From contig JAUWBF010000005.1 in the NCBI GenBank assembly GCA_030601755.1, positions 1-64,000 of the forward strand: a stretch of DNA of 64,000 bases, in the 5' to 3' direction. Below are positions 1-9,698 of this stretch, in pieces. The translations under genes and the position numbers were made by a program. Positions within the stretch are counted from its first letter, which is position 1, and each line of letters begins with the position of its first letter. This DNA is from Verrucomicrobiota bacterium (GTDB lineage: Bacteria; Verrucomicrobiota; Verrucomicrobiia; Opitutales; Opitutaceae). A model generated the notes under the pieces. That model was not told the DNA's origin, did no database searches, and saw nothing but the letters and a program-made list of their open reading frames with translations.

Positions 1-2
1 CC

Positions 3-119
3 ACCATCGACGCCTACCTCGCCGCCCATAACCGCTCCCCCAAGCCCTTCATCTGGACCAAACGCGCCTCCGACATCCTCGCCAAAGTCCAACGCGCACG
101 CGCCGCCCAGAATAAGTAA
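3..119 (+). CDS. IS630-family transposase, C-terminal end only (cut by window edge)
   Basis: The open frame entering from the left edge encodes the last 38 residues of a protein ending at a TAA. The segment contains PKPFIWTKRASDILAKVQRA, the characteristic end of IS630-family DDE transposases (the 'PF.WTK.A..IL..V.R' block). The catalytic residues lie outside the window, so completeness cannot be judged. It sits beside a DUF3800 gene and a helicase broken by another insertion sequence, which marks this edge as an accessory region. No terminal inverted repeat can be defined from one end alone. Confidence 0.72.
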   Translation, partial: TIDAYLAAHNRSPKPFIWTKRASDILAKVQRARAAQNK

Positions 120-276: not shown

Positions 277-1134
277 TTATGGCTTGGTGAATGAGCCGTC
301 GAAGCGGTGTTGGCTGGGCACAAAAAGCCAGTGCAGGTAAGGATCGTGCCAACGGCCGCCGGGATACGTTGCCCCGGTGCTGATGCCGATATTGAACCCC
401 GCCTTGCCGGTGACCCGTTTGATTTCGGCGAGGATGTATTTGTAGAGACGCTCCTTTGCCACGGTTCGTTTGCCTGGCCCGGTTTGTCCCGGAGTGCGCT
501 CCAGGTGTTTGTTGTTCAATCGGAAGGTGGTGGAGCCGAGCACGACATCGAGCGCCTGCATGATGATATGGTCATGGGAACGCACCTCCGTGATCGCAGA
601 CTCATCCAAAATGATGCCGCCCGCGGAGCGGACGGACTTGTTGGAGGCCAGCGCGGCTAGGTAGCCGCGGAAACGCAAGACTTGCTCCCGGGTGTCTCCG
701 ATTTCGTCGAGATAGATGCGCACACGAGGTGGTTTCACGTGTGGTGGCATCAGCGTGAGGCCGAACCCGTGTTTCAGGAACTGGTAGTAAAGCAGGTAGT
801 AGCTGTCTGAAAGTTGCTCGTTGGACAGGCCCACCGGAACGCGGGCGTTTTGGGTAAACATGACGCGCATGACGGCGCGACGGGCCGCCAGTTCGTTGAA
901 GAAGGCGGAGACAAAGACTTCGTAACGCTCGACGATACCGGGGCCGACCTTCTCCCATTTGATTTCGCTGGTCAGGCCGAGGCGTGACTTGCACGCGGAA
1001 AGGTTGTGCTCCACCTCCCGCAGGTGTGTGGCGGGCACCCGCACGCCACCGTAAAAATTCGAGTAGTAACGCCCGCGTCGGTCGGATTCGTCGCAGAAGA
1101 GAGTGTATTCCTTCTCGTGGAGAGGCGTCGTCAT
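277..1134 (-). CDS. DUF3800 domain protein (RNase H-like fold), partner of the disrupted helicase
   Basis: A 285-aa protein starting at ATG. It has the DUF3800 pattern: an N-terminal FCDESD (D15, E16), a central YLDEIGD (D143, E144) and a later acidic block around E183, D188 and D196. These acidic residues form the presumed metal site of a family thought to have an RNase H-like fold; the family is frequent in mobile and defence islands, and its activity is not established. The gene begins only 13 bp after the restored stop of the upstream helicase, on the same strand, so the two were probably co-transcribed. The copy itself looks intact. A nuclease or effector role is inference. Confidence 0.82.
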   Translation of the reverse strand: MTTPLHEKEYTLFCDESDRRGRYYSNFYGGVRVPATHLREVEHNLSACKSRLGLTSEIKWEKVGPGIVERYEVFVSAFFNELAARRAVMRVMFTQNARVPVGLSNEQLSDSYYLLYYQFLKHGFGLTLMPPHVKPPRVRIYLDEIGDTREQVLRFRGYLAALASNKSVRSAGGIILDESAITEVRSHDHIIMQALDVVLGSTTFRLNNKHLERTPGQTGPGKRTVAKERLYKYILAEIKRVTGKAGFNIGISTGATYPGGRWHDPYLHWLFVPSQHRFDGSFTKP

Positions 1135-1147
1135 GAAACGAGTCGGC

Positions 1148-1330
1148 TTAATCGGGCGTGGACTGCAGAAAGTCGGACCAGGTGGTGAAGCCTTTTCCCT
1201 TATAAATTACCGCAGGATGCCTTGGCATGTTTGCTGGTAGATTGCCTTTTTTATTACACCAATCATTCCACGCGGCACCATTTTTTAAGCCTAACGAGCG
1301 AGCGAAATCACGAGCAGCTTCAAATGCTAG
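1148..1330 (-). pseudogene. C-terminal remnant of the IS-split nuclease-helicase (sixth repeat unit)
   Basis: Reading the minus strand from 1330 gives 60 residues ending at TAA: a start like LAFEAARDFARSLGLKNG, then NMPRHPAVIYKGKGF and WSDFL. This is one more copy of the repeat that fills the end of the helicase at 2897-6067. Joined to 2917 after removing one CTAG copy and the element, the frame runs through without a shift (KKF-LAF-EAARDF). The piece has no start codon of its own and is cut off from its promoter by the insertion, so it is almost certainly not expressed as a protein. Confidence 0.85.
1327..1330. repeat. Target-site duplication CTAG, left copy
   Basis: CTAG immediately outside the left inverted repeat. 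The identical CTAG is found at 2914-2917 outside the right end. Together they show that the element inserted by transposition into one CTAG. Confidence 0.88.
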
Positions 1331-1346
1331 CAGCCTGTCGGACTTA
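1331..1346 (+). repeat. IS left terminal inverted repeat
   Basis: CAGCCTGTCGGACTTA; matches the reverse complement of 2898-2913 at 15 of 16 bases. Confidence 0.88.
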
Positions 1347-1378
1347 ACGGGGAACTTCGTTTAGGGACTGGAGTCGAG

Positions 1379-2770
1379 GTGGATATGCCGAAGTTCGTCA
1401 ACATCGACCACGACACGGAGCTGCTCTTGCCGCCGAAGCTGAGGGAGTGGGTGCCGGAGGGGCACCTGGTTCACTTCGTGATGGAGGCGGTGGATCTGCT
1501 CGATGTGAGCGAAGCGTCGGTCAACCAGCGGGGGACGGGCAGCGCGCAGTATCCGCCCCGTCTGCTTTTGGGGCTGCTCGTCTACAGCTATGCGACGGGT
1601 TTGTTTTCGAGCCGCCAGATCGAGCGTGCGACCTACGAAAACGTGGCGGTGCGGCTGCTGTGCGCGGACACGCACCCCGACCACGACACGCTGTGCGCCT
1701 TTCGGCGCAAAAACGGCGCGCTCCTGCGCCGGGCCTTCGCGCAGGTGCTGGAACTGGCCGCCGGCTGCGGCATCCTGAAGGTGGGCGGCGTGACCGTGGC
1801 GATCGACGGCACGAAGGTGTTGGCCAACGCCAGCAAACACGCGGCGGTGAGCCACGGCCACGCGCAAAGCGCCCTGCGCGAGATCGACGCGGAGATCGCG
1901 CAACTTTTGGCCAAGGCCGAGCAAGCCGACTCCACGCCCCTGCAAGACGGCCTGACGATCGAGGGCGAGATTGCACGCCGCCACGAGCGCAAGGCCCGTC
2001 TTCTCAAGGCAAAGGCCGAGATGGAGGCGCGCGCGCACGCCCGCTTCCAAGCCGAGCAGGCCGACCACGAGGCCCAACTCGCCAGACGCGAAGCCGCGCG
2101 CCAAGCGGGCAAGAAGCCCCGCGGCCGCGAGCCGAAGGCGCCGGACCCCGCGCCCGGCGAGAAGGACCAGGTCAACTTCACCGACTCCGAGAGCCGCATC
2201 ATGAAGACCAAGGACGGCTTCCAACAGTGTTACAACGCGCAGGCCGGCGTGGAGACCGACTCGCGCCTGATCGTCGGAGCCCGCCTCGCCCAGGCGCCCA
2301 ACGACAAGGAACAACTCGAGCCGACCCTGGCCGCGGTGCGCGAACACGTCGCGCCCGGGCACGTGCTGATCGACAGCGGCTTCGTCAGCGAAGCGGCGAT
2401 CCGCTCCGTCGAGCGACCCGACCCGAAGCGCGAAGGCGAGAGCCCGCGCGTATTAGCCGCGGTGATACGCGAACGCCACGGCCGCACGATCGAGCAGCTG
2501 GAGAAACGCGAGGACCCGCCGGCGCCGCCGCCGGAGGCGCCCTTCACCGAACACCTCGCGCATCGCACCGCCACCGCCGCCGGCCGCGCCCTCTATCGCT
2601 TGCGCCAACAAACGGTCGAGCCGGTCTTCGGCATCATAAAATCCGTGCTCGGCTTCCGCCGCTTCATGCTGCGCGGCCTGGCCAAGGTCTCGCTCGAATG
2701 GGACCTGGTGTGCCTGGCCTACAACCTCAAACGCCTACACCGTCTCGACGCCCGCCTGCGACCGGCCTGA
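1379..2770 (+). CDS. IS1182-family DDE transposase
   Basis: A 463-aa protein, start GTG 1379 (an ATG two codons later, at 1385, is equally possible). The N-terminal domain has LLPPKLREWVPEGHLVHFV and YSYATGLFSSRQIERATYE, then PDHDTLCAFRR, all typical of IS1182/IS5-like transposases. Catalytic signatures are AIDGTKVLANASKHAA (first Asp), LIDSGFVSEAAI (second Asp) and QQTVEPVFGIIKSVLGFRRF (Glu region). A basic, charged insert of about 110 residues (roughly 165-270) separates the first two. Full length and uninterrupted. It catalyses cut-and-paste movement of the surrounding element. Confidence 0.93.
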   Translation: MDMPKFVNIDHDTELLLPPKLREWVPEGHLVHFVMEAVDLLDVSEASVNQRGTGSAQYPPRLLLGLLVYSYATGLFSSRQIERATYENVAVRLLCADTHPDHDTLCAFRRKNGALLRRAFAQVLELAAGCGILKVGGVTVAIDGTKVLANASKHAAVSHGHAQSALREIDAEIAQLLAKAEQADSTPLQDGLTIEGEIARRHERKARLLKAKAEMEARAHARFQAEQADHEAQLARREAARQAGKKPRGREPKAPDPAPGEKDQVNFTDSESRIMKTKDGFQQCYNAQAGVETDSRLIVGARLAQAPNDKEQLEPTLAAVREHVAPGHVLIDSGFVSEAAIRSVERPDPKREGESPRVLAAVIRERHGRTIEQLEKREDPPAPPPEAPFTEHLAHRTATAAGRALYRLRQQTVEPVFGIIKSVLGFRRFMLRGLAKVSLEWDLVCLAYNLKRLHRLDARLRPA

Positions 2771-2896
2771 CACCGACCGGCGGTGTCGCCACCCGCGCCA
2801 TCACCGCCTTCCGCCCGCCTCGCCCGACACCAAATTCCCCTCATCCTCCCTCCATCGCCCTCCTCATCCCTCTCCCCCTTCCTTCTCGCAAAAAAC

Positions 2897-5800
2897 CTAA
2901 GCCCGACAGGCTGCTAGAAACTTCTTTTCAAATGGAGCGATGTTACCAGTGCCCAACCAATCACCCCATCCTTTCCACTGCTCTCGGTATGCATTGGCTG
3001 GGTGTCTCGGGATATCTTTGGGTCTGGGCTCTTTGTCGGAGAACTCACCTTTAAGGTAACGGGCCCATTCCGTTGAGCTGGCTAGATTTAAATTGTGAAC
3101 GAAATCTCGGGCAGAAAGGAAGTCCCTGAAACGTTTTTTGACCGTGGCGCGTTTCGGTAATTCAACTCCGAGCCATGCACTCCAGTTAAAGTCATCCAAT
3201 GCGTATGCATTGCTAGGATACCGCGGGATGTCGTCTGGGATGGCTGCGTGACCACCGAGCTGACCCTTTGTGTATTTTACCCACTCGCCGTGTGAGCTTA
3301 GGCCAAGCGAACTTACAAATGCGCAGGCTTCATGGTATGGTCGGTAGGATTTTTTTCTTATAGGTATATTGCCGCTTCCAAGCCAATCCCCGTATCCGAG
3401 CCAGCCATGATCTTGATAATAGTGTTCAGGACCAGCAGGCACCCCCGCTAGGCGTGGAGGAAGGTGAGGCAATTTGCCTTTGCAGTATTGGCGCCAAGCC
3501 CTCTGTCCAGTGAGCTTTAAGCTCCTGGCAAACTCACGAGCTTCAATGAAGGGGAGTAATTCGGCTCCGTCATTACGCATTCCGAGTGTTGCTTGTTCTA
3601 GACCCAACCAATGAGCCCAATTTACCCAGCCCTTATTGCGATATGCCTGCGGTGGGTTTCGTGGAATGTTTAAAGGTAGTGGCGGCTTTCCGAGGATGCC
3701 TTGGCGTGCATAAAGTCGCCATTCATCTCCAGTTTTTAAACCTAGTGCCGAAGCATATGCCCTAGCTTCGTCATAAGATAAGATCACTTTCCTAGTCGCG
3801 GGTCTCCGAAATCCGATAAAGTCACCCCAATCAATCCAGCCTTTACCCTCATAAACACTATATGGGGCAAGTGGTATATCGCGGGGAATTCCGCCTGCTT
3901 TCCAAATTTTCACCCAGTCGGTGGACTTGGTAATGCCGCTTTGACGAGCCCACTCACGAGCCTCCAGAAAGGGCCGCCATTTAAGCTTCGCAATTTTCTC
4001 CCAACAACGAACCTCAATGTAGTTCGCAAACTCTTCTGCGCTTACATCAAGCGGCATTACTCCCGTCATATCGAACTTCACCAAGCCGCCGACTTCCGGC
4101 GTCCGACCTTCGGCTGTGGCGCGGAACCATTCGATGATCCGTTCGTCGTGGGTGGCCAATGCGCGAAGGACGAGCAGTATGAATTTGAAGGCACTACTTT
4201 CTGCAATCTCAACGGGAGTCGATCCATCCGGCACCACTAGTGGCAGCAGAATATAGCCGAGTTGTTTGCCCGATTTCGGGTCTAGTCGCAGAGCCCTGCC
4301 GGAGGCTTGGACGATGTCGATGGTGCTGCCCTTCGGGTCGGCGAAAAAGACGCAGTCGATGCCGGGCACATCCACACCTTCGGTCAGGCAGCGGGCGTTG
4401 GTCACCAGCGACGGAGTGGCTTTGAGAAAGGCATCCAGCTCACGCTGCCGGGCGGCGCTGCCCATCTTGCCCGACACGTGATAGGCGGCGATCGGTGTTT
4501 CCGCAGTGAGGTGCTCGTTGAGTTTGTTGCAGAGTTCGCGGAAGCGGGAGGCGCGGGCGATGCTGCTGTGAAACGAAACGGTGTGCTTCACCCCGTGGCG
4601 CTCAGTGGCACGGCGAAGCGCAATCAGGCTGGCGAGAGCCAGGGCGGTGACCTCGTCCAAGTCATCCGGACCAAGATCGAGCCAACGATTGTTTTCCACC
4701 AAGGCCCGCACTTCAGATTCGCGCACACCGATGGTGAGCAGACGGTAGTCGCAGAGAATCGGATCGGCGGCGTCGATGGCGGCCTTGAAGGTGAGCAGGT
4801 CGATGGTCTCGCCGTAGAGCGCGGGGTCGTCCATCGAAACAATGTCGTCGGAACGGTTGGAGGCGAAGCGGCGTTCCGTGGCCGTCATGAACAGGCGGCG
4901 AGGCAGCGGCAGGTTGTCGTTGTGGAGGAGATGGGCGTAGTAGCTGGAGGTTTTGCCGGTGGTTTTGTGGGCCTCGTCAAACACGGCAAAGTCGAAGTCG
5001 GTCTCGGCGGCCCGCGCGGCTGTGGAGAGGACGGGCGAACTTTGATACGTGGTGAGCACGACCAGCAGACCGGGGTTGCTCCGGGTGGTGCGGAGGTGGT
5101 CAGCCAGCTTTTCAGGATCGGTATCGCAGGGGATGCCGAGCTCATGGACGTGGGCGATCAGAGCCTCGTTATCCATGTCGGCGACCTCATCATCGCTGCA
5201 CACACAAAGCCAGTCTACGGCGCGGGAGTCAGCGACGGCCTCGGTCATCCATGTCTCCAAGGTCTGGCGGACGAGCGCGAGACTGGGCACCGCTATCAAG
5301 ACGCGTCGCGCATCCAGTTCCCTGGCGATCCAGTAGGCGGTCAGACTTTTCCCGGAACCGCAGGGATGGAGCAACTTGCCGCGCGTTTGTGCGGGTTCGG
5401 TGTAGTAGGCGACGGCAGCGGCGATAGCCTTGGTCTGATGTTTGCGTGGCGAGCGCGGGTTAATGACCGGCGGTGTGGAGTCGGCTGCCTGCGCAGTCAG
5501 GGAGACAAAAAACTCGGGAGGAAGCGTGGTCCACGTTTCCGAGGTGATGTCGCCGATGTTGCCGAGACCTTGGAGAATACCCGGGATGCGCGAGGTTGTG
5601 GTGCAGACGAGGGCGAAAGAGATTTCCCGGCAGATCGTGAATGACAGGGAGGTGAAGGTGGAGAGCTCACCGAACGTCAGCGAGGAGGCGACATCGCTAC
5701 GATATTTGGCCTGTATTGACCAAAACTCGCCCGAGTGGGTGCGAGCGATCATGTCGATGCCCGTGTCTCGTGGCGGCAGGTTTAAGCGGCTGCGGACATC

Positions 5801-6067
5801 TGCGGGAACATCGTAGTCAAACCAAACCTCGGCCAGCTTGGTGCGGTAGGTTGGCTCCCAGCGCAGATAGTGGCGCACGACGTGGGCGAAGGCGGCGCCT
5901 TGTTGCGTGGTGTCGGGAAGCGTGGCCACAGCGGCGGTGAACTCTTCCCAACATCTGACGGATGCAAACTCGACGGGTAAAGGCACGTGCGGAGAAAAGG
6001 TAATGTCATCTGATTTGGCAAGTTGCCGACGTGTCGCAGTGATCTGCCAACGCCTTTTTTGACACAA
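2897..6067 (-). CDS. Nuclease-helicase with C-terminal integrase-type repeats, truncated by IS insertion
   Basis: A 1,056-aa frame on the minus strand. Residues about 35-160 form a restriction-endonuclease-like domain (D105 in TGIDMIA, then the QAKY core with K121). Residues about 205-600 are a superfamily 2 helicase: Walker A HPCGSGKS (234-241), DEAH (364-367), MTATE (394-398) and the motif V/VI run EGVDVPGID to QASGRALR. From about 699 come five repeats of roughly 60-70 residues (EAR.FA..L.L....W..Y, then IPR.P..AY and W..WLG), matching the phage-integrase repeat unit. The last residues (AACRA) come from the IS; the true end lies at 1148-1330. The TTG start at 6067 falls in the upstream terminator's T-run, so GTG 5986 is more likely. 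A DNA-targeting defence role is inferred. Confidence 0.85.
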   Translation of the reverse strand: MCQKRRWQITATRRQLAKSDDITFSPHVPLPVEFASVRCWEEFTAAVATLPDTTQQGAAFAHVVRHYLRWEPTYRTKLAEVWFDYDVPADVRSRLNLPPRDTGIDMIARTHSGEFWSIQAKYRSDVASSLTFGELSTFTSLSFTICREISFALVCTTTSRIPGILQGLGNIGDITSETWTTLPPEFFVSLTAQAADSTPPVINPRSPRKHQTKAIAAAVAYYTEPAQTRGKLLHPCGSGKSLTAYWIARELDARRVLIAVPSLALVRQTLETWMTEAVADSRAVDWLCVCSDDEVADMDNEALIAHVHELGIPCDTDPEKLADHLRTTRSNPGLLVVLTTYQSSPVLSTAARAAETDFDFAVFDEAHKTTGKTSSYYAHLLHNDNLPLPRRLFMTATERRFASNRSDDIVSMDDPALYGETIDLLTFKAAIDAADPILCDYRLLTIGVRESEVRALVENNRWLDLGPDDLDEVTALALASLIALRRATERHGVKHTVSFHSSIARASRFRELCNKLNEHLTAETPIAAYHVSGKMGSAARQRELDAFLKATPSLVTNARCLTEGVDVPGIDCVFFADPKGSTIDIVQASGRALRLDPKSGKQLGYILLPLVVPDGSTPVEIAESSAFKFILLVLRALATHDERIIEWFRATAEGRTPEVGGLVKFDMTGVMPLDVSAEEFANYIEVRCWEKIAKLKWRPFLEAREWARQSGITKSTDWVKIWKAGGIPRDIPLAPYSVYEGKGWIDWGDFIGFRRPATRKVILSYDEARAYASALGLKTGDEWRLYARQGILGKPPLPLNIPRNPPQAYRNKGWVNWAHWLGLEQATLGMRNDGAELLPFIEAREFARSLKLTGQRAWRQYCKGKLPHLPPRLAGVPAGPEHYYQDHGWLGYGDWLGSGNIPIRKKSYRPYHEACAFVSSLGLSSHGEWVKYTKGQLGGHAAIPDDIPRYPSNAYALDDFNWSAWLGVELPKRATVKKRFRDFLSARDFVHNLNLASSTEWARYLKGEFSDKEPRPKDIPRHPANAYREQWKGWGDWLGTGNIAPFEKKFLAACRA
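2898..2913 (-). repeat. IS right terminal inverted repeat
   Basis: Plus strand TAAGCCCGACAGGCTG, the inverted partner of 1331-1346. It supplies the premature stop (2897-2899) that ends the interrupted helicase frame. Confidence 0.88.
2914..2917. repeat. Target-site duplication CTAG, right copy
   Basis: CTAG directly outside the right inverted repeat, duplicating 1327-1330. Confidence 0.88.
2918..3973 (-). repeat. Integrase-type protein repeat array (five units; sixth at 1148-1330)
   Basis: The coding DNA holds five degenerate repeats of about 180-210 bp encoding the pattern 'EAR.FA..LGL....EW..Y..G....P.DIPR.P..AY....W..W.DWLG'. Copies begin near 3973, 3800, 3570, 3350 and 3140 and run toward lower coordinates. 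They are related in protein but diverged in DNA. This stretch is visibly richer in A+T than the neighbouring core genes, which suggests horizontal acquisition. Confidence 0.75.
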
Positions 6068-6095
6068 AAAAGCCCCGGCTATTTTTTGCCGGGGC
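6066..6095 (-). terminator. Rho-independent terminator after sufT
   Basis: On the minus strand a perfect 8-bp GC stem (GCCCCGGC with GCCGGGGC, 8-nt loop) is followed by six T. It lies 15 bp after the sufT stop and ends that unit; the TTG start of the helicase frame falls in its T-run. Confidence 0.88.
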
Positions 6096-6110: not shown

Positions 6111-6653
6111 TCAGATCAAGCCGAGCTTCATCTTCCCTTCTTCGGAAATCATGGACTGGTTCCAGGCCGGCTCCCAGGTGATGCGCACGTCGGCGGCGCT
6201 GACGCCGGGGACGAGGAGGACCTTGGTCTTGGCGTCCTCGGCGATGGCCGGGCCCATGCCGCAACCGGGGGCGGTGAGGGTCATGGCGACGTCGACCTTG
6301 TAGCCGCCATCTTCCTTGAGGATGTCCATCGAGTAAACGAGTCCGAGGTCGACGATGTTCACGGGGATCTCGGGGTCGTAGACTTTCTTGAGCTGGTCCC
6401 AGACGGCCTCCGGGTCGGGCGCGCCGTCGGCGGTGGTGGCGGCGCTGACGGTGTCGTTGACGACTTCCTCGCCGAGTGCGTCGGCGTCCTTGCCGTCGAT
6501 GCGGTAGAGGCCGCTGTCGGTCTGCACGGTGTAGGTGCCGCCGAGGACTTGGTGGATGAACACCTTGGTGTCGGCGAAGAGCGTGTGCTTGTCACCGGAC
6601 GGGATCTGGGTGGCGACGACGTCGCGGGAGAGGGAGCGGTCTTTGGAGGACAT
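6111..6653 (-). CDS. sufT: SufT-type Fe-S cluster assembly protein (DUF59)
   Basis: 180 aa. Residues about 82-178 are a DUF59/MIP18 domain, with YDPEIPVNIVDLGLVY and the conserved cysteine C131 in TLTAPGCGMGPAIAEDA. The extra N-terminal domain (SRDVVATQIPSGD..., residues 8-60) is the one found in the SufT family rather than in short DUF59 proteins. SufT proteins help maturation of iron-sulfur clusters in the cytosol. No other suf genes are adjacent; the gene stands alone between two strong terminators (6066-6095 and 6656-6687), so it has its own promoter, which must overlap the end of the upstream terminator. Confidence 0.88.
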   Translation of the reverse strand: MSSKDRSLSRDVVATQIPSGDKHTLFADTKVFIHQVLGGTYTVQTDSGLYRIDGKDADALGEEVVNDTVSAATTADGAPDPEAVWDQLKKVYDPEIPVNIVDLGLVYSMDILKEDGGYKVDVAMTLTAPGCGMGPAIAEDAKTKVLLVPGVSAADVRITWEPAWNQSMISEEGKMKLGLI

Positions 6654-7398: not shown

Positions 7399-9698
7399 GC
7401 GTGAACGGTGTTGGCGAGGGCGATGTCGAGGGTTTGGCCGGGCGCGCAGATGACGTCCTGGCCGGCCACGGTGAAGTCCGCGGAGCCGGCGTTTTGCGCG
7501 TCGGCGGTGAGCTTGACCGAGTCGGGTGTGATCGAGGCGGTGAACCAGCGGCCCGACCATGCGAAGCGGAAGGCGAGGCGGGTCCACTTCTCGGGCAAAT
7601 GCGGCGTGAGCGTCATGCGTCCGTCGAGCAGGCGCAGGCCGCCGAAACCGAGGACCGCGGCCATCCAGGCGCCGCCGTTCGCGGCCGGGTGGGTGCCGCC
7701 GATGTAGAGCGGACCGATGTATTGCTTGGACTTGCCGGTGAGGTCGATGGTGGCGGTGCGCAGGAAGTATTTGTAGGCCCACTCGGTGCGGCCCAGCTCG
7801 GCGGCGAGGAGCGCGTAGACGCACGGGCTGAGGCTGGAGCCGTGCTCGGTGCGCGGTTCGTAGTAGTCCCAGTTGGCGCGCTTGATGTCCTCGGAATACT
7901 CGCCGGAGAACAGGTGCAGCATGAGCACGACGTCGGCCTGCTTGATGACCTTGGTGGTGGTCGCGAGGCCGTGTCCGCCGCCCCAGTATTCGGTGGGGTG
8001 CAGCATGCGTTTCTTGAGCTCGTCGGGAGTGGAGTCCTCGAGCTTGTGGTAGCCGGTGAACTGCTCGATGACGCCGGTCACGGGGTCGGGCTCCGGGCGG
8101 TGGAGCTTCGCATCCATATCGCGGATACGCCCGAGGTCGGTGAGGAAGTCGAGACGTCCGATCAGCTCTTCGACGACGGCGGGACGTTCGCGGGAAAGCA
8201 GGTCGACGGTGTCGAGCGCGATGCGCAGCGTGGCGGCCACCATGGCGGAGGTGAACGCGTTGTTGTCGACCCGCTCGTGGTATTCGTCGGGGCCGACCAC
8301 GTCGAGGACCTCGTAGCGGTCCTTCTCGGCCTTGAACCAGGCGTAGGAAACGAAGAAACGAGCGCATTCCAGGATCACCTCGGCGCCTCCGTCGACCAGC
8401 ACGGAGAGGTCGCCGGTCTGCCGGTAGTGACGCCAGATGGCGAAGGCGACGTCGCCGCTGATGTGCACCTGCTTGTCGCGGAAATGGGTGCGCATGGGAC
8501 GGCCGGTGTGGACGTCGGTGACGTTGAAGTGCGAGCAGGCGTCGTCGCCGGTCTCCTGGCTTTCCCAGGCGTAGAACGCGCCGCGGAAACCGTATTCGGC
8601 GGCCTTGCGGCGGGCGCCGTCCAGCGTGTGGTAGCGGTAGCGGATCAGGTTGCGCGCAAGCTCCGGCAGGGTGTGGTCGAAGAACGGCAGCATGAACATC
8701 TCGGTGTCCCAGAAGATGCCGCCCTTGTAGACTTGGCCGGACAGACCGCGGGCGGGGATCGACTGGCGGTCCGACTCCGGCGCGATGATGAGCAGGTGGT
8801 AGATACTGTAGCGGAGCGCCAGCTGGGCCTCCTCGTCGCCCTCGATGGTGACGTCGGCCGAAGCCCAGCGATTTTGCCATTCGCGGCCGCTGTCTTCGAG
8901 CAGGGCGTCCCAGCCCTCGAGCGACGCGGCGCACGCGGCCTCGGTGGCGGCGGGGAGGGGATCGCCCGCGCCGTCGCGGCCGGTGAAAAATGCGACGTAG
9001 CGCTCGATCGAATACTCGACGCCCGCCTCGGCCTCGAGGGAAAGGCGGCGAATGACGCGGTTGTCCTCGAACGAAATCTCCGCGTTGTCCAAGCCGGACG
9101 AGCGGGTGAGGGCGGCGACGCAGACCGGCACGTCGAGCTCATGGGTGCGGGCGGCAAGCACGTCGACCTCGCGGTCGCCCTGCGAGGCAAACGCGGTCAG
9201 GTGCGGGCCGTTGATGTCCCAGACCTGGCCGTCAATGGAGGTCTCGATGACGATGTGGCGGGCCTTGGATGAGCTGACCGAAAACCGCATGGCGCCGACA
9301 TGGGTGTCGGAAAGGCTGAGGAATCGCTCGGAACGAACACTGACCGTGTCGCCGTCGCCGAGGAGGAAGGTGGTCTCGCGGTGATGAACCGAGCGGCTCA
9401 GGTCGAGTTGCTGGCAGTGGTTGGCAATCTCGGTTGAGAGCGCGGAGAGCGGTTGGCCGTCGACGAGCACGCGGACGGTGAAGGGGGAGGGGGCGTTGAC
9501 CGGCTCGCGCCAGAGGTCGCCGACCTGATCGTAGAGGCCCGCGAGGGTGCAGGCGACGAGTTCGGGGGCACCGAATTCCTCGAGGGTGCCGCGGACGCCG
9601 AGGCGGCCGTTGCCGATGATGAACTTGCTGCCGTTTTTGGCGACGTCTTCGGCGACGAAGCCGTCTTGTCGGATGCTCCAGGCGGAGTGGGTTTTCAT
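7395..9698 (-). CDS. GH65 disaccharide phosphorylase (maltose/kojibiose/nigerose type)
   Basis: 767 aa starting at MKTHSAWSI; the frame extends upstream but no better start is seen. GH65 signatures: GGIFWDTEMFMLPFF (about 327-340), the catalytic Glu E472 in VVGPDEYHERVDNN, and KQADVVLML near the phosphate site. These enzymes split an alpha-glucosidic disaccharide with phosphate into glucose and beta-glucose 1-phosphate. Which disaccharide is used cannot be read from motifs alone. The coupled pgmB gene takes the sugar phosphate into glycolysis, and a LacI-type regulator is divergent. No signal peptide, so it acts in the cytosol and needs an importer encoded elsewhere. Confidence 0.92.
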   Translation of the reverse strand: MKTHSAWSIRQDGFVAEDVAKNGSKFIIGNGRLGVRGTLEEFGAPELVACTLAGLYDQVGDLWREPVNAPSPFTVRVLVDGQPLSALSTEIANHCQQLDLSRSVHHRETTFLLGDGDTVSVRSERFLSLSDTHVGAMRFSVSSSKARHIVIETSIDGQVWDINGPHLTAFASQGDREVDVLAARTHELDVPVCVAALTRSSGLDNAEISFEDNRVIRRLSLEAEAGVEYSIERYVAFFTGRDGAGDPLPAATEAACAASLEGWDALLEDSGREWQNRWASADVTIEGDEEAQLALRYSIYHLLIIAPESDRQSIPARGLSGQVYKGGIFWDTEMFMLPFFDHTLPELARNLIRYRYHTLDGARRKAAEYGFRGAFYAWESQETGDDACSHFNVTDVHTGRPMRTHFRDKQVHISGDVAFAIWRHYRQTGDLSVLVDGGAEVILECARFFVSYAWFKAEKDRYEVLDVVGPDEYHERVDNNAFTSAMVAATLRIALDTVDLLSRERPAVVEELIGRLDFLTDLGRIRDMDAKLHRPEPDPVTGVIEQFTGYHKLEDSTPDELKKRMLHPTEYWGGGHGLATTTKVIKQADVVLMLHLFSGEYSEDIKRANWDYYEPRTEHGSSLSPCVYALLAAELGRTEWAYKYFLRTATIDLTGKSKQYIGPLYIGGTHPAANGGAWMAAVLGFGGLRLLDGRMTLTPHLPEKWTRLAFRFAWSGRWFTASITPDSVKLTADAQNAGSADFTVAGQDVICAPGQTLDIALANTVHA

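Follow-up and report, generated by a model that had tools for sequence, protein, structure and literature searches.

We hold it rather probable that a recent transposition of an IS1182-family element cut the terminal repeat from a single-chain Type ISP-like restriction protein, in which an exchangeable C-terminal repeat array would, by analogy, be the DNA-recognition part. The insertion, the exact join of the reading frame, the domain architecture, the normal terminal repeat in relatives and the exchange of whole arrays are established at the level of the sequence. The insertion itself is an ordinary event, and the main interest lies less in the element than in a Type ISP-like motor that lacks a methyltransferase and carries a repeat array open to exchange.

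The insertion element and the rebuilt frame

The window, i.e. the whole 64-kb stretch of DNA analyzed here, carries an intact IS1182-family insertion sequence of 1583 bp (1331 to 2913, forward strand), present just once in the genome. Its transposase (1379 to 2770, forward strand, 463 aa, GTG start) matches DDE_Tnp_1, DDE_Tnp_1_6 and DUF772, and scores 342 bits against the IS1182 transposase model NF033551, where the cut-off is 270. The original prediction had placed an element with 16-bp inverted repeats between two CTAG copies, and all of these coordinates proved correct; the left repeat, CAGCCTGTCGGACTTA (1331 to 1346, forward strand), and the right repeat, CAGCCTGTCGGGCTTA (2898 to 2913, reverse strand), are identical at 15 of 16 positions, and the target copies lie at 1327 to 1330 and 2914 to 2917. 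Terminal inverted repeats together with a duplicated 4-bp palindromic target are thus present, as in the IS1182 family. Other genomes of the same bacterial family carry related elements, and those whose ends could be read are with few exceptions bounded in the same way (CTAG followed by CAGCCTGTCGG at one end, and CCGACAGGCTG followed by CTAG at the other), so that the CTAG duplication can be regarded as characteristic of the element rather than as a reading of one site. Another IS1182 element, ISPsy36, has the target GGCC (PMC8027508). Moreover, CTAG is strongly under-represented in the window, with 21 occurrences against 198 expected from base composition, and therefore two chance copies flanking the element are very unlikely. 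Elsewhere, IS1182-type ends (CTAGCAGCCTGTCGG...CCGACAGGCTGCTA) were found at a short distance from each other with no transposase between them (L046, 1382 to 1420; L054, 1352 to 1420; L052, 1329 to 1365), and these short end pairs are possible MITE-like or hairpin derivatives of the window's type of element.

When 1331 to 2917 is taken out, i.e. the element and one CTAG (1587 bp, a multiple of three), a single open frame runs through the join, KKF-LAF-EAARDF, to the TAA at 1148 to 1150, exactly as had been claimed. This frame comprises 1110 codons from the TTG at 6067, or 1083 from the GTG at 5986. The stranded 3' end of the gene (1148 to 1330, reverse strand, GC 0.47), consisting of repeat 6, the terminal repeat, and the TAA, is 183 bp long and open in the predicted frame only, with stops in the other two. 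As it stands now, the truncated nuclease-helicase gene (2897 to 5986, reverse strand) enters the element for a few codons and ends at 2897 with ...LA-ACRA-stop. The GTG at 5986 is the more likely start, because the residues there, MPLPVEF, correspond to the MALPAPV of relatives and the TTG at 6067 falls in the terminator tail of the upstream gene (6111 to 6653), immediately after an intrinsic terminator-like hairpin (6072 to 6095, reverse strand, just before the helicase gene) and its T-tract. The cost of the insertion was the last 60 residues, and the nuclease, all of the helicase motifs and five of the six repeats are still open.

A Type ISP-like motor without a methyltransferase

The gene had been described as an accessory nuclease-helicase, which is correct and, by alignment with LlaBIII, can be narrowed to a Type ISP-like protein. 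A single chain holds an Mrr_cat_2 nuclease domain (5585 to 5860, reverse strand) and an SF2 helicase-like ATPase (4283 to 5449, reverse strand; ResIII and Helicase_C, with motifs I, II, III, V and VI present), all three domains scoring above their cut-offs, as expected of a Type ISP nuclease and SF2 motor. Homology to LlaBIII covers both nuclease and motor (residues 54 to 644, E 1.9e-51), within the N-terminal two thirds of the protein, and the Mrr D...QAK motif, Walker A, DEAH, TAT, NARCLTEG and QASGRALR are all kept in the alignment. Counting along it, the T of TAT and the R of NAR correspond to LlaBIII Thr376 (motif III) and Arg564 (motif V), both of them conserved; mutation of either residue in LlaBIII impairs cleavage (PMC7049714). 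Since Type ISP enzymes are ATP-driven restriction enzymes (PMC4666363, PMC7049714), the window motor and nuclease should by homology have such an activity, and the conservation of motifs makes it likely that the protein was active before the insertion.

While the N-terminal Mrr nuclease and the SF2 translocase on a single chain are shared with LlaBIII and LlaGI (PDB 4xqk, 5ffj), the remainder of the protein is different. In LlaBIII and LlaGI the target is recognized by the methyltransferase and the target recognition domain, TRD (PMC7049714). The window protein has neither: no methyltransferase family was found in it by Pfam or NCBIfam, the C-terminal TRD of Type ISP enzymes is absent, and beyond residue ~690-697 of 1110 there is only the repeat array, which starts directly after the motor and occupies the TRD's place with INT_rpt-type repeats. 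A second comparison can be made with SauUSI, whose nuclease is of the PLD type and in which modified bases are read by an SRA-like domain, in place of the Mrr nuclease and repeats seen here, and which, like the window protein, presumably carries no methyltransferase. It is a Type IV-like ATP-dependent endonuclease, and the likeness is that of a restriction enzyme that depends on ATP and has a helicase motor (PMC7913695).

Repeats 1 to 5 (2918 to 3979, reverse strand) measure ~56-61 aa each and are separated by linkers. In the restored protein the repeat profile identified a sixth at residues 1050 to 1106 with 68.9 bits, which bears out the claim that the join restores one more repeat. These repeats had been described as integrase-type. 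The window repeats themselves score 15 bits against INT_rpt (PF14882), below the gathering cut-off of 26.5; their kinship to this family is drawn from the collinear homologue L008 of Salinimicrobium, which scores 54.6 bits in four stretches. We read 11 intact relatives with motor identities of 37-71% (L104, L105, L111 to L114, L117, L118, L120, L008 and L011), and the terminal repeat was complete in every one of them (11/11). None ends at the position of the insertion, all reading on through the full terminal repeat, and in most of the nearer relatives this repeat is closer to the window's repeat six than to its repeats one to five. Thus, the sixth repeat was part of the gene. The arrays of relatives range from 5 to 12 repeats, and the two intact relatives with five, L118 and L113, each have a terminal repeat of their own.

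The structure model of the array consists of helical repeats (pTM 0.32); no match was found between this model and PDB folds, and a PDB sequence search with the INT-type array gave no significant match. In the literature searched, no paper working on the function of INT_rpt was found, with one mention in a modelling table. INT-type repeat frames were also seen in L030 (153 to 2201) and L028 (1375 to 2253), with no recognizable motor domain in the stretch at hand.

Exchange of arrays between motors

In four pairs the motors are far closer than the arrays (motor/array identity 85/44% for the window and L119, 85/53% for L118 and L120, 79/42% for L104 and L106, 83/46% for L122 and L117), while three others look vertical (74/80% for L104 and L105, 74/79% for L120 and L121, 64/67% for the window and L106), and the drop in identity comes where the motor passes into the array, near residue 680. 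At the DNA level, L122 and L117 appear to represent one and the same locus, with 88% identity in the motor, 82% in the terminal repeat and 94% in the downstream gene, and the array between is not alignable. Likewise, L116 and L119 share a motor at 90% and a common downstream gene at 89% (with a DUF1016 domain in L116), but at this shared locus L119 has INT repeats and L116 has HA repeats (260 bits). Shortly past the stop of the HA frame, L116 retains a remnant of an INT-type terminal repeat (8240 to 8360; EALATYAKDGFTTWSDFLQPL, 47 bp at 98%), and therefore an INT array was replaced by an HA array there. On the motor tree, array type changes eight times against a mean of 8.0 for shuffled labels and so does not track the tree, the types having been grouped by the analyst from identities and most of the relatives being metagenome-assembled genomes (MAGs). 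The array is also lower in GC than the motor, 0.50 versus 0.605 in the window and likewise in all other Opitutaceae relatives tested, which could fit a separate origin or, alternatively, reflect repeat composition. As array length varies, part of the array divergence could be repeat turnover and not import, L116 excepted. As far as the sequences show, then, the array is exchanged like a cassette, wholesale and once for an unrelated repeat family.

HA-repeat (PF03457) nuclease-helicases of the same bacterial family, e.g. L020 and L021, have the same plan of nuclease-motor and tandem C-terminal array, and no methyltransferase was found in the stretch scanned. Their motors are only ~32-34% identical to that of the window, and their repeats belong to another Pfam family; L116, as a hybrid, combines a motor of the window kind with an HA array. 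A PDB sequence search with the HA repeats matched 2kta, and a single-sequence structure model of the HA array had a mean pLDDT of 70. The exchange of TRDs in Type I restriction, e.g. in Staphylococcus Sau1 (PMC5399793), is similar in that the specificity part is swapped and the motor stays. In contrast, the window's kin swap whole tandem-repeat arrays, even across repeat families, and with no methyltransferase attached.

It is the position in place of the methyltransferase and TRD, together with this pattern of swapping, that leads us to infer that the array is the DNA reader. By analogy, the array would act in the role of the TRD, foreign DNA would be engaged, the SF2 motor would translocate and the Mrr nuclease would cut. 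A recent IS1182 jump into a CTAG site severed the terminal repeat, and on this reading the loss of repeat 6 would have altered or weakened recognition and probably, if not certainly, disabled the system. If the array does read DNA, it would constitute a natural specificity-swap system for an ATP-driven nuclease and offer a route to the roles of the INT_rpt and HA repeats. It also raises the question of how host DNA escapes cutting when the nuclease comes with no methyltransferase of its own.

A more far-reaching proposal, to which we give a low probability, is that INT_rpt arrays are modular DNA readers with a repeat for each short word, passed as cassettes, which are also resized, from one Type ISP-like restriction motor to another, and interchangeable with HA arrays, such that the element shortened the recognized sequence and did not simply kill the enzyme. 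In that scheme a few variable positions per repeat would do the reading. In L114 (3641 to 8236), twelve near-alike INT repeats vary mainly at few columns (e.g. 25, 44, 45, 47 and 48). Variable columns chosen from one array had N/S values of ~0.5-1.1 in other arrays, with 0.2-0.35 (phylum arrays) and 0.55-0.85 (Opitutaceae arrays) at the remaining columns. A recognition code at the variable repeat positions was set aside, as these N/S values indicate relaxed constraint at least and are not clear on diversifying selection, and positional profiles were rejected as evidence of a code, since they correlate as in any fold.

Fate of the split gene and its neighborhood

The original prediction held that the gene had been functional and was later inactivated. 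Earlier activity is likely from the conserved motifs, as noted above, but inactivation goes beyond what was found, as repeat 6 is all that was lost. One alternative, to which we assign about an even chance, is plain gene death, where the element killed a costly, dispensable restriction gene and the remainder is now decaying. Lesions are indeed common in this gene across the bacterial family. Besides the insertion in the window, L122 has an in-frame TAA before the terminal repeat, L121 has a single in-frame TAG (5905 to 5907, TGG in relatives) exactly at the motor/array junction, with six open repeats after it, and L119 combines a deletion in the nuclease domain with a frameshift. Others carry deletions (a large internal one in L107 and a C-terminal one in L106 in which the last repeats are gone) or frameshifts (L115 and L108/L109), and L110 is a truncated piece. 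No internal stop was found in 16 pieces of rpoB from the same genomes, and therefore sequencing error is unlikely as the general cause of the lesions, even if an individual MAG frameshift may be erroneous. However, rpoB is essential, so that this control argues against assembly error and not for weak selection, and in the window itself 1050 codons are still open with all motifs intact and repeat 6 alone missing.

It can also be hypothesized that five repeats are enough for the truncated protein to go on working, perhaps with a changed specificity, and that the element created a new allele. The intact five-repeat relatives and the range of array lengths speak for this, as does the recurrence of losses limited to the array end (the window, L122 and L106). 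Against it, the natural five-repeat proteins retain a proper terminal repeat, and the conservation of this repeat across the array swap between L122 and L117 suggests that it is important; on balance we find this outcome doubtful.

Downstream of the gene is a DUF3800 gene (277 to 1134, reverse strand), a PADLOC candidate for PDC-M04A, which would suggest that motor and DUF3800 formed a two-gene defense system and that the insertion was polar on the second gene. Before the insertion the two genes were on the same strand with a gap of only 13 bp between the stop and the DUF3800 gene. DUF3800 matched component A of the candidate defense system PDC-M04, and the helicase gave no hit to the remaining PDC-M04 models. 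However, blastp detected no homologue of DUF3800 beside any relative, and neighbors differ between loci. We thus consider such a system very improbable, and DUF3800 was rejected as an obligate partner. At the edge of the window (1 to 119), the first letters of the contig are the 3' part of an open frame, ..KPFIWTKRASDILAKVQRARAAQNK-stop, which we take to resemble the C-terminus of an IS630-type transposase, and a multi-copy IS may border the locus at the assembly break.
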